From Bradyrhizobium sp. NFR13 (GTDB lineage: Bacteria > Pseudomonadota > Alphaproteobacteria > Rhizobiales > Xanthobacteraceae), in the NCBI RefSeq assembly GCF_900114605.1, contig NZ_FOTP01000001.1:186001-250000 (forward strand): DNA of 64,000 nt, written 5' to 3'. The notes below the pieces were generated by a model. That model was not told the origin of the DNA, did no database searches, and saw only the letters and a program-made list of their open reading frames with translations. Position 1 is the stretch's first letter, and every line of letters begins with the position of its first letter. The translations under genes and the position numbers were made by a program. Of this stretch, positions 56,059 through 61,942 are shown piece after piece.

Positions 56059-57183
56059 CTACTCCCAGTTCAGCGCGCCGCCGTTCTGATATTCGATCAC
56101 GCGGGTCTCGAAGAAGTTCTTCTCCTTCTTCAGGTCCATGGCTTCCGACATCCACGGGAACGGATTTTCCGTCTCGTTGAACACCGGCGCGAGACCGATC
56201 TGGGCGCAGCGGCGGTTGGCGATGAAGTGCATATAGGTCTCGCACAGCGCCGCATTCAGTCCGAGGAAGCCGCGCGGCATGGTATCGCGCCCGTAGGCCG
56301 CCTCAAGTTTGGCCGCCGTGCGGATCATGTCGCGGATTTCCTCCTGGAACGCCTTGGTCCAGAGATGCGGGTTCTCGATCTTGATCTGGTTGATGACATC
56401 GATGCCGAAATTCAGATGAATCGATTCATCCCGTAAAATGTACTGATACTGTTCGGCGATGCCGACCATCTTGTTACGACGCCCGAGCGACAGGATCTGC
56501 GCGAAGCCGGTATAGAACCACATGCCTTCGAAGATCACATAGAAGGCGACGAGATCGCGCATGAAGGACTGATCGTTTTCCGGCGTCCCCGTTTTGAAAT
56601 CGGGATCGTCGAGATGCTGGGTGTGCCTGAGCGCCCAGGCGGCTTTCTCGGTGATCGACGGCACCTCGCGATACATGTTGAACAGCTCGCCCTCGTCGAG
56701 GCCCAGGCTTTCGACGATGTACTGGAACGTGTGCGTATGCACCGCCTCCTCGAAAGCCTGACGCAGCAGATATTGCCGGCATTCCGGATTGGTGAGGTGG
56801 CGATAGATCGCCAGCACGATATTGTTGGCGACGAGGCTCTCCGACGCGGCGAAGAAGCCGAGATTGCGCTTGATGGCGCGGCGCTCGTCCTCGGTCAGAC
56901 CGTCACGCGACTTCCATAGCGCAATATCAGCCTGCATGGAGACTTCGGTCGGCATCCAATGGTTGTTGCAACCCGCGAGATATTTCTCCCACGCCCATTT
57001 GTATTTCAGCGGCAGCAGTTGGTTGACGTCGGCGCGACAGTTGATCATGCGCTTCTCGTCGACGGAGACGCGGCCGCCGGCGCGGTCGATTGTGCCGAGG
57101 CCGGTGGCATCGGCAGGCGCTTGCGGCAACGGGATGAAAGCGGCCGCCTTGGAGGCGGATGAAGTGTCGGACCAGTCGAGCAT
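56059..57183 (-). CDS. nrdB: Ribonucleotide reductase small subunit, class Ic-like (Mn/Fe, Phe in place of Tyr)
   Basis: The 374-residue R2 protein has metal ligands Glu115, Glu146, His149, Glu219, Glu253 and His256. In the motif EAVHTHTF the position of the E. coli radical Tyr122 is Phe153, and the first ligand is Glu115 where class Ia has Asp84. Both changes are hallmarks of class Ic R2 proteins of the Chlamydia trachomatis type, which use a Mn(IV)/Fe(III) site instead of a tyrosyl radical. The length and [20 protein letters not shown] stretch also resemble that enzyme. It lies 150 bp downstream of nrdA across an inverted repeat pair, so it is part of the riboswitch-controlled unit. Confidence 0.94.
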
Positions 57184-57211
57184 GGGGTGTTCTTTCTAGT
57201 GTCTATCTCAG

Positions 57212-57311
57212 CCCTCATGGTGAGGAGCCGGCCGTTTGGCCGGCGTCTCGAACCATGGGCGTGGGGCACATCCTTCGGGACGCGGCTAAGTGGCCGCTCC
57301 TCAGGATGAGG
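57212..57311. repeat. Head-to-head pair of palindromic repeats (family D) between nrdA and nrdB
   Basis: Copy 1 (57212-57259) begins CCTCATGGTGAGGAGC and ends GCGTCTCGAACCATG. Copy 2 (57269-57311) is the same element inverted, reading on the minus strand CCTCATCCTGAGGAGC ... CGAAGGATG. Elements of this type, CCTCATNNTGAGGAGC...CTCGAANNATG, are known to me as very common in Bradyrhizobium relatives. The pair could form one long hairpin in the nrdA-nrdB transcript. Confidence 0.82.
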
Positions 57312-57333
57312 TCTGCATGTGTGGAGGTGCGCC

Positions 57334-60267
57334 CTACTGGCACGCCTCGCATTCGGGATTATCGATCGAGCAGGCCATTGCGACGTTCAGCTCCGGCACA
57401 CTGACTACGGACGGCTGAACGAGGATCGGCGCACCTGTCGTCTTCGCTGCCGCGACGGTTGCCGACACTGCATTGAGCTTGCCGTCTGTGCCCTTCAGCG
57501 TCGACTTCTCCACATGTGTGGCACTGCGCGAGCGCAGGTAATAGGTCGTCTTCAATCCCAGGGTCCAGGCCAGGCGATACAGCTGGTCGAGCTTCTTGCC
57601 GGATGGGTTGGCGATATAGAGATTGAGCGACTGCGCCTGATCGATCCATTTCTGACGGCGCGAGGCCGCCTCGATCAGCCACGCACTGTCGATCTCGAAC
57701 GAGGTCGCATACAGCGCCTTGAGATCATCAGGTACGCGGTCGATCGATCCGACACTGCCGTCGAAATATTTCAGGTCCGAAACCATCACCTCGTCCCACA
57801 GCCCGCGCTTCTTCAGATCGCGCACGAGGAAGGCATTCACCACTGTGAAGTCGCCCGACATGTTCGATTTGACATAGAGGTTCTGATAGGCCGGCTCGAT
57901 CGACTGCGCGACGCCGCAGATATTGGAAATCGTCGCCGTCGGCGCGATCGCCATCACGTTGGAATTGCGCATGCCGGTGGACTTCACGCGGTCACGCAGG
58001 CCGTTCCAGTCCAGCGTAGTGGACCGATCCATCTGCACGCCGCCCCGCGCCTCGGCGAGGATTTCTATGGAGTCGATTGGCAGGGTGCCGCGGCTCCACA
58101 GCGACCCATCGAAGGACGGATAGCGACCGCGCTCGGCGGCAAGATCGACCGACGCCGAGATGGAATGGAAGGCAATCGCCTCCATGCTGGTGTCGGCAAA
58201 TGCCACAGCCGCGTCCGACGCCATCGCGATGCCCTGAACCTGCAGCGCATCCTGGAAGCCCATCAGGCCGAGACCGACCGGACGGTGCTTGAGGTTGGAA
58301 CGGCGCGCTTCCGGGATGGTGTAAAAATTGATGTCGATGACATTGTCGAGCATCCGCATCGCCGTGGTCACGGTGCGCTTGAGCTGCGCATGGTCGAGAC
58401 CGTTCTGACCGGTGTGGTTGAGCAGGTTGACCGAACCGAGATTGCAGACGGCGACTTCGTCGTCGGACGTGTTCAGCGTGATCTCGGTGCAGAGATTCGA
58501 GGAGTGAATCACGCCGGCATGCTGCTGCGGCGAGCGCAGGTTGCAGGGATCCTTGAAGGTGATCCAGGGATGGCCGGTCTCGAACACCATGGTCAGCATG
58601 CGGCGCCACAGGTCTGTCGCGCGCACTGTCTTGAACACGCGGATCTCGCCGCGCGCGGCCTTTTCTTCATAGGCCACATAACGTTCGGCAAACGGCTTGC
58701 CATAGAGATCGTGCAGTTCCGGCGTCTCATCGGGCGAGAACAGCGTCCATTCGCCGTCCAGCTCGACGCGCTGCATAAACAAATCCGGCACCCAGTTGGC
58801 GGTGTTCATGTCATGGGTGCGGCGACGGTCGTCGCCGGTGTTCTTGCGCAGATCCAGGAACTCTTCGATGTCGATGTGCCAGGTCTCGAGATAGGCGCAG
58901 ACCGCGCCCTTGCGCTTGCCGCCCTGATTGACAGCGATCGCCGTGTCGTTGGCGACCTTGAGGAACGGCACCACGCCCTGGCTCTCGCCATTGGTGCCCT
59001 TGATATGCGCGCCGAGACCGCGCACCCGCGTCCAGTCATTGCCGAGACCGCCGGAATATTTGGCCAGCAGCGCATTATCCTTCACCGACTTGAAGATGCC
59101 GTCGAGATCGTCGGCCACCGTGGTGAGGAAGCAAGATGACAGTTGCGGCCGCTGCGTGCCGGAGTTGAACAGCGTCGGCGTCGAGGCCATGAAGTCGAAC
59201 GACGACAACAGATTGTAGAATTCGATGGCGCGGGCTTCGCGGTCGATCTCGCGCAGTGCGAGGCCCATGGCGACGCGCATGAAGAACGCTTGCGGCAGTT
59301 CGATCCGGTTGCCCTGCACATGCAGGAAGTAGCGGTCATACAGCGTCTGCAAGCCCAGGAACTGGAACTGCAGATCGCCTTCAGGCTTCAGCGCCGCGGC
59401 GATGCGCTTGAGATCGAAGCGCGCGAGTTCGGGATCGAGCAAGTCGGCCGCGATACCGGTCTTGATATAGGCGCCGAAATATTCGGCGTAGCGCGTGCTC
59501 ATATCAGCCTGCGACGCGTACGTCGGCGTGCCCCCGACAAAGGACAGAACTTCCGTGCGCAGCTTGTCGAGCAGCAGGCGAGCGCTGACAAAGGTGTAGT
59601 TCGGCTCCTGCTCCACCAGCGTGCGGGCAGCCATAATGCCGGCCAGCGCCAATTCATCCAGCGTGATGCCGTCATAGAGATTGCGGCGGGTTTCCTCCAG
59701 CACAGGCGCAGCGTCGACGCCGTCGAGCCCGGCGCAGGCCTCGTTGACGATCAGCTCAAGGCGCACCGAATCGAGCGGCGTGCGGGTGCCATTCGCGAGG
59801 GTGACATGCAGCACTGGCGCGGTGGAGACGAGCGCTGGCTTGGCGGCCTGTTCCTCGGCGCGGGTACGCGCGCGTTCCTCACGATACAGCACATAGGCGC
59901 GGGCGACCTTGTGGTGCTCGCTGCGCATCAGTGCCAGTTCGACCTGATCCTGCACGTCCTCGATATGAAAGGTGCGGCCCTCACCGACGCGGCGAGTCAG
60001 CGCCGCCACGACTTCGCCGGTGAGCTGTTCCACCGCCTCATGGACGCGGCGCGACGCGGCAGCCGTGTGGCCCTCGACCGCGAGGAAAGCCTTGGTCATG
60101 GCCACGGAAATCTTGCTGCCGTCGAAGGGCGACACGGTGCCGTTGCGCCGGATGATCTGCATCGCGGGCTCGCGCGCAGGCGCGGCGAGCGTCTCCGGTG
60201 ACAGTTGAAGCAGCGGCGCATGAGCCGCATCGCGGCCATTGGACAAAACGGAAGATGAAGTAGGCAT
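57334..60267 (-). CDS. nrdA: Ribonucleotide reductase large subunit
   Basis: The 977-residue protein has an N-terminal ATP-cone (MQIIRRNGTVSPFDGSKI...), the catalytic barrel with SSCF, and NLCTEITLNTSDDEVAVCNLG, where Asn-x-Cys-x-Glu and the following Cys match the E. coli active site. A redox Cys pair at the C-terminus is in PECEACQ. It reduces ribonucleoside diphosphates with radical chemistry from NrdB. The start is ATG 60267 (MPTSSSVLS). The frame open to 60591 is the translation of a cobalamin riboswitch and is rejected as protein. Its length, near 970-980, fits the ATP-cone class Ic large subunits. Confidence 0.95.
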   Translation of the reverse strand: MPTSSSVLSNGRDAAHAPLLQLSPETLAAPAREPAMQIIRRNGTVSPFDGSKISVAMTKAFLAVEGHTAAASRRVHEAVEQLTGEVVAALTRRVGEGRTFHIEDVQDQVELALMRSEHHKVARAYVLYREERARTRAEEQAAKPALVSTAPVLHVTLANGTRTPLDSVRLELIVNEACAGLDGVDAAPVLEETRRNLYDGITLDELALAGIMAARTLVEQEPNYTFVSARLLLDKLRTEVLSFVGGTPTYASQADMSTRYAEYFGAYIKTGIAADLLDPELARFDLKRIAAALKPEGDLQFQFLGLQTLYDRYFLHVQGNRIELPQAFFMRVAMGLALREIDREARAIEFYNLLSSFDFMASTPTLFNSGTQRPQLSSCFLTTVADDLDGIFKSVKDNALLAKYSGGLGNDWTRVRGLGAHIKGTNGESQGVVPFLKVANDTAIAVNQGGKRKGAVCAYLETWHIDIEEFLDLRKNTGDDRRRTHDMNTANWVPDLFMQRVELDGEWTLFSPDETPELHDLYGKPFAERYVAYEEKAARGEIRVFKTVRATDLWRRMLTMVFETGHPWITFKDPCNLRSPQQHAGVIHSSNLCTEITLNTSDDEVAVCNLGSVNLLNHTGQNGLDHAQLKRTVTTAMRMLDNVIDINFYTIPEARRSNLKHRPVGLGLMGFQDALQVQGIAMASDAAVAFADTSMEAIAFHSISASVDLAAERGRYPSFDGSLWSRGTLPIDSIEILAEARGGVQMDRSTTLDWNGLRDRVKSTGMRNSNVMAIAPTATISNICGVAQSIEPAYQNLYVKSNMSGDFTVVNAFLVRDLKKRGLWDEVMVSDLKYFDGSVGSIDRVPDDLKALYATSFEIDSAWLIEAASRRQKWIDQAQSLNLYIANPSGKKLDQLYRLAWTLGLKTTYYLRSRSATHVEKSTLKGTDGKLNAVSATVAAAKTTGAPILVQPSVVSVPELNVAMACSIDNPECEACQ

Positions 60268-60331
60268 CGGCAAGACCCCGTGTGATGCATCAAGCTGTGG
60301 GGCTGGGGCCGAAAGGACGCTGCAAAATACA

Positions 60332-60347
60332 CGGCGGAGATCCGCCG
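60332..60347 (-). promoter_or_regulatory. Hairpin in nrdA leader, possible expression platform
   Basis: CGGCGGA and TCCGCCG flank a 2-bp centre between the riboswitch and the nrdA start; on the minus strand TGTATTTT follows. It may be a weak terminator or part of the switching fold. Confidence 0.45.
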
Positions 60348-60389
60348 GCATTGCCTGCAAGCGACCGCTGGGACACCCCGCCCATGGAC

Positions 60390-60568
60390 GTTCTGGTGTC
60401 GCGGCAGGTCTCCTGGCTCGCAGGTCAATGTCTGTTTTCAGCCTTCCCGATGCTTGCGCATCAGTGACTTCAATCGAAACAGACTCACTGCTTACAGTTG
60501 CGGGGGCAGCGCCGGAATATGACGCAAAAACAGCGTCTTCACCGGCTTCCCTCTTAGCCACCAAGTCT
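60390..60568 (-). promoter_or_regulatory. Cobalamin (B12) riboswitch upstream of nrdA
   Basis: Read on the minus strand the leader has the conserved blocks of a cobalamin riboswitch in order. GGGAAGCCGGTGAA is at 60538-60551, the core box CCCCCGCAACTGTAAG at 60491-60506, and GCGAGCCAGGAGACCTGCC at 60403-60421. A likely P1 closing pair is TGGTGG (60558-60563) with CACCA (60394-60398). It ends about 120 bp before nrdA. B12 should repress expression, a known logic when a B12-dependent class II reductase is also present. Confidence 0.95.
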
Positions 60569-60791
60569 TGCGACCAGGCGGACCGTGACATCTACATTTG
60601 GTGTGACCCGCGGTGAAGTGTCAAGCGAGCATTGGCGCCGAACGCAACAAATTCGGTAGGGCTGTTGGTTCAGTGGACAACCGCTTGCGTGGCTGAAACC
60701 GCGGGATCGTTGGCGGTTTCTGCACGATGCGATTCGTTGTCCGAAAGGACCGTGAGGCGCAGAAGAGCCACATCAATCGATGGAGGATGCC

Positions 60792-60977
60792 ATGCGGAAC
60801 CTGGCAACGAGCACTGAGAGAACCGAGTTCAACGCTTTCGTGGGGCACGCAGGCGCGGTCACGGCGTTCGAGACGACGGAGCAGATCGCCCGCCTTCGCC
60901 TCGACGACATGCTCAACGACGCGTTGATGGACAGCTTTCCTGCGAGCGATCCGATTTCTTCGTTGCAACTCGCCTGA
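60792..60977 (+). CDS. Small protein with SFPASDP motif
   Basis: The 61-residue protein ends DDMLNDALMDSFPASDPISSL. A DxFPASDP-type ending recurs in many unnamed small proteins of Proteobacteria. GGAGG lies 5 bp before the ATG at 60792; an ATG at 60780 overlaps that site. No membrane or signal segment is visible. Function unknown. It lies between the divergent nrdA leader and the GlxA-type gene, which converges on it with 5 bp between stops. Confidence 0.75.
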   Translation: MRNLATSTERTEFNAFVGHAGAVTAFETTEQIARLRLDDMLNDALMDSFPASDPISSLQLA

Positions 60978-60982
60978 GCGGA

Positions 60983-61942
60983 TCAGACCGCGCGAAAGCT
61001 GGCCCGATACTGGCTGGGCGTCAGGCCAAGCCGCCGCACAAAGACCTGACGCATATGTTCGGCGGTGGTGAAACCGGATTCATAAGCCACCACCTTGAGC
61101 GGCAGATCGCTGCCTTCGAGACGGTTACGCGCCGTGTCGATCCTGGCGCCCTCGACAAAATCAGCCGGCGTCATCTTTGTTTCGTGCTTGAACACCCGCG
61201 CGAAGGTCCGCGCGCTCATGCCCGCCACATCGGCCAGCTCATCCACGCTGTGCGCATCACGCAGATGGGCCATCACATGGGTATGGACTCGCGCAATCGG
61301 TGAATCCGGCTCGGCCGGCGGCACCAGATAGGGACTGAATTGCGACTGGCCACCCTGGCGCTGCGCCACCACAACCAGACGCTTGGCTACGGCCAGCGCG
61401 ACATCCGCGCCATGATCTTCCTGGACCAGTGCGAGACCGAGATCGATCCCTGCGGTGACGCCGGCCGACGTCACCAGCGCGCCGTCACGACTATAGATGC
61501 GATCGAACTCCACATGCGCTTTGGGGAATCGCACCGCCAATAGCGGCGCATTCTGCCAGTGCGTCGTCACCGTCTTGTCGTCGAGCAGGCCTGCATGGCC
61601 GAGCGCGAATGCCCCGGTGCACACCGAGCCATACCGCCCCGCATGAAGCGCCGCATTGGCCAGCCACTCCGTGAGCTGGGGATCGGCTTCCGCCGTCGGC
61701 AGCTCTGGCCCGCCGGCCACCAGCACCAGATCCCAGGGCTTGTTCGCATCACTGAACGCCAGATCGGCGGATATCCGCAAACCGTTCGATGCACGCAGCG
61801 GTGCACAGTCTGCTGCGACAAGCGTGATGTCATATCGGTCACCTGGAGCAACGAAGCTATTGGCTTCCATGAACACATCGAGCGGACCGGCAACGTCCAG
61901 CGACTGGACGCCAGGAAAAATCGCGAGAGCGACAGTCTTCAT
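60983..61942 (-). CDS. GlxA-family transcriptional regulator (DJ-1/PfpI plus AraC)
   Basis: The 319-residue protein has a DJ-1/PfpI domain (about 1-185, with nucleophile-elbow-like VCTGAFALG) and a C-terminal AraC helix-turn-helix pair (DELADVAGMSARTFARVFKHETKMTPADFVEGARIDTARNRLEG, and VAYESGFTTAEHMRQVFVRRLGLTPSQYRASF). GlxA-like regulators usually activate catabolic genes with a small ligand in the first domain. It is divergent from an HD-domain gene, its most likely target. Confidence 0.94.
   Translation of the reverse strand: MKTVALAIFPGVQSLDVAGPLDVFMEANSFVAPGDRYDITLVAADCAPLRASNGLRISADLAFSDANKPWDLVLVAGGPELPTAEADPQLTEWLANAALHAGRYGSVCTGAFALGHAGLLDDKTVTTHWQNAPLLAVRFPKAHVEFDRIYSRDGALVTSAGVTAGIDLGLALVQEDHGADVALAVAKRLVVVAQRQGGQSQFSPYLVPPAEPDSPIARVHTHVMAHLRDAHSVDELADVAGMSARTFARVFKHETKMTPADFVEGARIDTARNRLEGSDLPLKVVAYESGFTTAEHMRQVFVRRLGLTPSQYRASFRAV

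Follow-up and report, generated by a model that had tools for sequence, protein, structure and literature searches.

A cobalamin riboswitch before a class Ic type ribonucleotide reductase operon in Bradyrhizobium sp. NFR13, a very probable backup to the B12-dependent enzyme NrdJ

Features of the nrdAB locus

The window, i.e. the whole stretch of 64 kb of Bradyrhizobium sp. NFR13 DNA that was analysed, carries on its minus strand the genes for both subunits of a class I ribonucleotide reductase (RNR), nrdA and nrdB, preceded by a leader with a cobalamin riboswitch (Table 1). The riboswitch was identified using cmscan: the match to RF00174 runs from 60602 to 60386, covers model positions 1-189 with an E-value of 3.2e-32 and a score far above the gathering score of 31.5 bits, and is the sole Rfam hit at gathering score across the window. 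A search of the entire genome (6.22 Mb, 17 contigs) placed it again at the identical position with the identical score, as one of five cobalamin riboswitches. The strength of this covariance-model match bears out the first-pass annotation, which had read the nrdA leader as a B12 riboswitch; the interval given there (56059-60568) ends within the aptamer, whose start is 34 bases further upstream. The further suggestion that manganese availability is also sensed found no support, and a manganese riboswitch as second sensor was dropped, none having reached the cut-off in the Rfam scan of the window.

Table 1. Coordinates of the features of the nrdAB locus (positions in the window)
Feature	Position	Strand	Basis or remark
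Probable -35 element TTGACA	60619..60624	-	Alignment of leaders
Proximal NrdR box (probable); overlaps both -10 region and aptamer 5' edge	60589..60604	-	C/G nine bases apart
Cobalamin riboswitch aptamer (RF00174)	60386..60602	-	129.4 bits, full model length
P13/L13 hairpin (TGGG-CGGGGTGT-CCCA)	60369..60384	-	Expected kissing loop with CCCC of aptamer L5
CCCC, predicted sequestering strand for the Shine-Dalgarno GGGG	60299..60302	-	Pairs in the fold with P13/L13 fixed
Shine-Dalgarno-like GGGG of nrdA	60276..60279	-	GGGG in 30/30 leaders with a start picked
nrdA, large subunit of the class I ribonucleotide reductase (977 aa, with two ATP-cone stretches)	57334..60267	-	PRK07207, 1713 bits; PF02867, 630 bits; PF03477 in two stretches
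nrdB, radical subunit R2 of class Ic type (374 aa)	56059..57183	-	PRK07209, 682 bits; PDB matches; site pattern

An open frame runs from an ATG at 60591 through the riboswitch into nrdA. The start of NrdA was placed at ATG 60267 because a GGGG Shine-Dalgarno sequence is conserved in relatives shortly before the equivalent ATG; with both the Shine-Dalgarno sequence and the start conserved, translation of the riboswitch as part of NrdA was rejected. By including the open frame at 60591-60268, automatic annotation may overextend NrdA by 108 residues (1085 vs 977 aa).

Two other elements of the neighbourhood were recorded. The gap between nrdA and nrdB (57333-57184) contains a palindromic, repeat-like stretch (CTCATCCTGAGGAGC ... 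GCTCCTCACCATGAGG), spotted by eye. A gene for an AraC-type regulator with a DJ-1/PfpI domain (60983-61942, same strand) ends about 380 bases before the riboswitch; it was considered as an equivalent of NrdS and dropped, since tblastn gave hits in only 4 of the 80 loci of relatives (best 80 of 580), three of them over the HTH part only and all below 38% identity.

Leader and mode of control

The aptamer, which lies directly upstream of nrdA, has an invariant core. Elements between aptamer and start codon were compared in the leaders of 47 relatives, 9 of which had no readable nrdA frame, while no start was picked in 5 others (4 alphaproteobacteria and 1 acidobacterium). Of the 34 alphaproteobacterial leaders whose frame could be read, 30 showed an ATG with a Shine-Dalgarno-like site. 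The 4 remaining acidobacteria were left out of the fold and CCCC counts, which refer to 30 leaders, window included.

A kissing loop between L5 and L13 is described in the accessible part of PMC9600662. Judged by pairing potential, such a loop can form in the nrdA leader, because the CCCC of the L5 region is invariant across 34 aligned riboswitches; its counterpart, the GGGG of the L13 loop, is present in 38 of the 39 leaders with a readable nrdA frame. The closing pair of P13 is T-A in the window and in locus L011, and C-G in most others. When P13/L13 was fixed with its loop unpaired, the Shine-Dalgarno GGGG was paired in all 30 leaders, in 28 of them with CCCC. A CCCC is found 3-40 nt upstream of the GGGG in 28/30 leaders, against 12.6 expected from shuffled leaders. 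Unconstrained folding gave Shine-Dalgarno pairing above 0.5 in 29/30 leaders (mean 0.86); folding alone does not show a switch, because the Shine-Dalgarno sequence is already paired without constraint.

These leader elements make translational control, by B12-induced hiding of the Shine-Dalgarno sequence, the probable mode of regulation. When B12 is plentiful, the aptamer would fold and its L5 loop would capture L13 just downstream; CCCC would then be free to pair with the Shine-Dalgarno GGGG before ATG 60267, and translation of nrdA, and of nrdB with it, would be blocked. When B12 is scarce, L13 could compete for CCCC, the ribosome-binding site would open and the B12-free enzyme would be made.

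Termination of transcription, in which B12 binding would let the hairpin 60347-60332 (followed by TGTATTTTGC) stop transcription before nrdA, is an unlikely alternative. A terminator-like site was indeed found at this place, and the Streptomyces nrdABS riboswitch is published as acting on transcription (Borovok 2006, as cited in the accessible part of PMC4991794), but the scan gave 2 sites against an average of 0.9 in shuffles, the T run after the hairpin is short and broken, and hairpin and tail vary among the 14 leaders compared, whereas the Shine-Dalgarno GGGG, its CCCC partner and L13 are conserved. An intrinsic terminator was thus rejected as weak and, among these 14 leaders, unconserved.

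Promoter and NrdR site

TTGAC is present upstream of the aptamer in 39 of 42 alphaproteobacterial nrdA leaders (that of the window among them), beginning at a distance of 18-30 bases. The probable -35 element rests on this alignment, since a sigma-70 consensus scan of 60200-60990 found no promoter-like site.

For NrdR, a motif scan was performed using what we take to be the NrdR box consensus. Of 42 alphaproteobacterial nrdA leaders, 31 have C and G spaced nine bases apart at aptamer offsets +1/+10, vs 1 of 22 other riboswitch leaders; at offsets -30/-21 the counts are 20/42 vs 1/22. These two offsets, which are 31 bp apart, are the best of 154. The spacing is the geometry of the paired NrdR boxes in PMC9110341, where the accessible text gives GC pairs at 9 and 18, 40 and 49. 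The window leader keeps the proximal box, and the distal one, 31 bp upstream, is unrecognisable in it. As judged from this spacing, an NrdR site overlapping the nrdA promoter is probable, and NrdR, for which a gene is present in the genome (nrdR, 170 bits), presumably binds there. With NrdR site and riboswitch in succession, dNTP level and B12 level would be sensed in turn.

NrdA, NrdB and the class Ic assignment

Both proteins matched NCBIfam models with high scores (Table 1), and NrdA contains a full barrel domain besides its two PF03477 stretches. The seven active-site positions of NrdB (E115, E146, H149, F153, E219, E253, H256) read EEHFEEH: as the first-pass annotation had noticed, Phe153 occupies the radical position, where Tyr is absent, and Glu115 is the first ligand. 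In pairwise alignment NrdB shares 205 identities over 341 positions (60%) with chain 1syy of Chlamydia R2c, and it scores 463 bits to the Chlamydia R2c chains 1syy and 4d8f; E. coli class Ia R2 chains, 1pm2 among them, reach no more than 57 bits. The closest solved chain is PDB 6y2n (288 identities over 338 aligned positions, 85%), whose source is presumably the actinobacterium Saccharopolyspora erythraea. The class Ic-like character proposed earlier was thus recovered by alignment, and NrdB is most likely a tyrosine-free class Ic type R2 with a predicted Mn/Fe centre.

It is improbable that this Phe-type R2 is tyrosine-free and yet not an Mn/Fe enzyme, i.e. that it uses another metal pair or is inactive. 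Sequence cannot reveal metal content, and a 2014 review states, in its accessible text, that binding of Mn/Fe in vivo had been demonstrated for no R2c (PMC4118035); against this stand the match of all seven active-site residues to the class Ic pattern and the identities to Chlamydia R2c and to 6y2n. From these we infer an Mn/Fe content for NrdB.

B12-related genes elsewhere in the genome

A B12-dependent class II enzyme, expected from the outset, is encoded elsewhere in the genome (NrdJ, 1262 aa, PRK07562, 2349 bits). Among cobalamin synthesis genes, those for CobD, CobU, CobW, CobN and CobQ were seen downstream of riboswitches. The first of the five riboswitches precedes genes for a TonB receptor, a BtuC-like permease, an ABC ATPase and CobD; the best model for this receptor is that of the B12 receptor (239 bits, below its cut-off of 600), and the permease and ATPase beside CobD are likewise below cut-off. 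The second precedes cobU-cobW-cobN-cobQ, the third and fourth are located before nrdAB and before metE (1129 bits), and the fifth before a siderophore-type TonB receptor with a PepSY gene. Both B12-independent isozymes found in the genome, nrdAB and metE, therefore stand behind B12 riboswitches. The proposal that a B12 switch holds the class I enzyme off when the class II enzyme can work is supported, and fits the metE riboswitch and the isozyme rule as stated in the accessible part of PMC545781.

Distribution in the order

RNR genes were compared in a sample of 150 genomes of the order, class II being scored by PRK07562 and class I by an R2 match at cut-off. Class II was above cut-off in 136/150 genomes and gave some match in 148/150. 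The weak class II match in G005, G051 and G122 is probably the class I protein, which is their only PF02867 locus, and these three genomes were counted as having no class II. A class I R2 above cut-off was found in 19/150 genomes, of which 11 are class Ic (NrdB 83-100% identity, EEHFEEH, a pattern thus shared by 10/10 other class Ic genomes of the sample), 5 have DEHYEEH and 3 have EEHYEEH.

A riboswitch is located upstream in 10 of the 11 class Ic genomes, and in the remaining one, G064, only downstream of nrdB. It is also found upstream in 4 of the 5 DEHYEEH genomes (G023, G035, G116 and G146, with a weak score of 40.6 bits in G035, where a PRK09102-type large subunit adjoins the DEHYEEH R2). 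None was found upstream of the class I loci of G005, G051 and G122; in G088, which has class II, the contig ends soon upstream of nrdA and the riboswitch state was counted as undecided. The class I loci of the order other than class Ic thus comprise 4 with both switch and NrdJ, 3 with neither and 1 undecided. That the riboswitch targets class Ic in particular was rejected, because the class Ia-like (DEHYEEH) loci of the order carry it too: B12-riboswitch regulation is not specific to class Ic.

G051, G088 and G122 belong to one genus (code g53); their R2 pattern EEHYEEH keeps the Tyr and has Glu as first ligand. Two of these 3 genomes are without class II, and no riboswitch was seen at the locus, which in G088 is cut by the contig end.

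Distribution among the closest class Ic loci

The named loci were the best 80 of 580 confirmed stretches, with NrdB at least 78% identical. Relatives were scanned for riboswitches using a model built from Rfam-found riboswitches, some of them nrdA ones, and weaker hits were confirmed with Rfam. Among these best 80 of 580, the nearest NrdB is that of a Tardiphaga record (94%), and EEHFEEH was read in 80/80. A riboswitch is located upstream of nrdA on the same strand in 56 of the 80, and is missing in 20, while contig ends cut off the remaining 4. By group, again among the best 80 of 580, there are 41 with, 7 without and 4 cut off in alphaproteobacteria, 6 of 6 with in Acidobacteria, and 9 with and 13 without in actinobacteria. 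In the NrdB tree, Acidobacteria form one group and actinobacteria another, with two Acetobacteraceae beside the actinobacteria. The aptamer is kept together with the downstream elements in many genera, and the combination of B12 riboswitch and class Ic enzyme recurs in this order and beyond.

Additional cobalamin riboswitches were noticed at several of these loci: a second one near that of nrdA on the opposite strand (L020, L021, L023, L026, L043, L045, L052, L064, L072), or one after nrdB on the same strand (L014, L016, L028, L029, L034, L036, L040, L045, L050, L053). The Amycolatopsis loci L078, L083, L085 and L086 have a single cobalamin riboswitch in the stretch, and it follows nrdB on its strand. 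Locus L072 is from Streptomyces nanshensis, whose R2 is class Ic (82% identity), possibly through horizontal transfer.

Riboswitch presence and the class II enzyme

Presence of the upstream switch was tabulated against presence of NrdJ. Outside the 150-genome sample, NrdJ was called from a second PF02867 locus on the basis of its length and split pattern; a family model was applied to the NrdJ of the window's genome and to five other loci only. Several genomes in the counts are metagenome-assembled (MAGs), and L011 has its NrdJ-like gene split over two contigs. The two-way counts omit L047 and L048, plus L009, L031, L049 and L061 (nrdA cut by contig ends); another contig of G150 and G172 (of L009 and L031) carries an nrdA fragment preceded by a riboswitch.

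Among alphaproteobacterial class Ic genomes, 44 have the switch and a second, NrdJ-like large subunit, 5 the switch only, 3 the NrdJ-like gene only and 5 neither (Fisher p 0.003, kinship ignored). Adding Acidobacteria and actinobacteria gave 59, 5, 15 and 6 (Fisher p 0.023, kinship ignored). A combined table in which G088 was counted as riboswitch-absent gave p 0.00009, and G088 is treated here as undecided. In the tree-based test, supported branches offered 3-4 independent pairs, of which about 1.9 follow the expected direction and 0.1 run against it, a result that is not significant and cannot become so because the pairs on the tree are too few. The link between riboswitch and class II across genomes is suggestive.

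Genomes departing from the link are of both kinds. An NrdJ-like gene without upstream switch occurs in G064, L060 and L062, and the upstream switch is missing from 12 actinobacterial genomes that have a second large subunit. A switch without NrdJ was seen in L010, L025, L034, L045 and L057 (L010, L045 and L057 being MAGs, L025 an isolate assembly). In L034 (Erythrobacter), L055 and L058, a PRK09102-type class I large subunit occurs where class II was expected, and only L034 keeps the riboswitch. L034 (Erythrobacter tepidarius) stands out by a class Ic nrdAB with a strong riboswitch and no class II seen; the usual isozyme logic does not fit it, because its other RNR large subunit is the PRK09102-type class I protein.

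Interpretation

Very probably, nrdAB encodes an oxygen-dependent class Ic enzyme (most likely Mn/Fe, tyrosine-free) that serves as a backup to NrdJ and is run by an adenosylcobalamin riboswitch leader. Five results computed here underlie this: the aptamer, the class Ic site pattern, the class II enzyme, metE behind a riboswitch, and the conservation. Most likely, cells make the backup enzyme only under B12 shortage; ligand binding by the nrdA aptamer and the direction of regulation are what we infer from these results. It is very improbable that the riboswitch is a relic or has another role, with the class Ic enzyme as main RNR expressed at any B12 level: some relatives do have a riboswitch without visible NrdJ and others an NrdJ-like gene without switch, but the full-length aptamer, with invariant core, is kept directly upstream of nrdA with its downstream elements in many genera, and class II is above cut-off in most genomes of the order.

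More tentatively, the observations could belong to a wider pattern in Hyphomicrobiales and in part of the Acidobacteria and actinobacteria, in which a B12 sensor would choose between a cobalt class II and a manganese/iron class Ic enzyme, with NrdR and riboswitch stacked on one promoter-leader. This module would have either spread between phyla together with the class Ic nrdAB operon or arisen anew in each of them; we regard this whole pattern as possible rather than probable. According to the accessible part of a 2014 review, Mn/Fe enzymes are found primarily among extremophiles and pathogens (PMC4118035). The host bacteria considered here mostly look free-living, and a backup for B12 shortage is the simpler reading. 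In the NFR13 genome, which can be put to the test, a single RNA sensor apparently switches two forms of an essential enzyme, one with cobalt and the other probably with Mn/Fe. This combination further raises the question whether B12 shortage goes along with manganese uptake in such genomes.

Comparison with known systems

Chlamydia trachomatis R2c (PDB 1syy, 4d8f, 4m1i) and NrdB have in common the metal-ligand set and the Phe at the radical position, and differ in sequence, with 60% identity. We know of no riboswitch or class II partner in the Chlamydia class Ic case. The R2 chain of PDB 6y2n is closer, being 85% identical to NrdB over 338 residues. As for regulation, Rodionov (2003) and Vitreschak (2003) are said to list nrdAB operons in several bacteria.

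B12 control of a class I RNR was, as pointed out in the first-pass annotation, already known in Streptomyces: the class Ia nrdABS of Streptomyces coelicolor is under a coenzyme B12 riboswitch (Borovok 2006, as cited in the accessible part of PMC4991794). Also in Streptomyces, NrdR binds both promoters, nrdABS and nrdJ, according to the accessible portions of PMC9110341 and PMC4009431. As far as these sources go, S. coelicolor and NFR13 share a cobalamin riboswitch before an oxygen-dependent nrdAB and a class II NrdJ in the genome; they differ in that the S. coelicolor enzyme is called class Ia, whereas NFR13, an alphaproteobacterium, has the site EEHFEEH and a leader of translational appearance. 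That Streptomyces nrdAB is class Ic in disguise was rejected, since 29 of the 30 R2 sequences fetched (of 59 hits) have DEHYEEH, the exception being S. nanshensis with EEHFEEH.

The same logic is documented for other enzymes. B12-elements are located before nrdDG in the delta-proteobacteria Desulfovibrio vulgaris and Desulfuromonas, with the isozyme rule stated in the available text of PMC545781, and metE is found behind B12-elements (PMC2211319, PMC9600662, each as far as accessible), the rule being stated for metE in the former. On the evidence of these texts, the rule common to those cases and to nrdAB here is that a cofactor-free isozyme is repressed by the cofactor its twin needs; the target is NrdDG or methionine synthase there, with no mention of class Ic in the accessible text, and a class Ic enzyme here. 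No report of a B12 riboswitch on a class Ic enzyme was found in the literature searched, mostly without subscription papers. The control principle and the class Ic enzyme are each known; B12 control of nrdAB being known already, the NFR13 locus is therefore a further case, and nrdAB here a clear new example, of a known principle.
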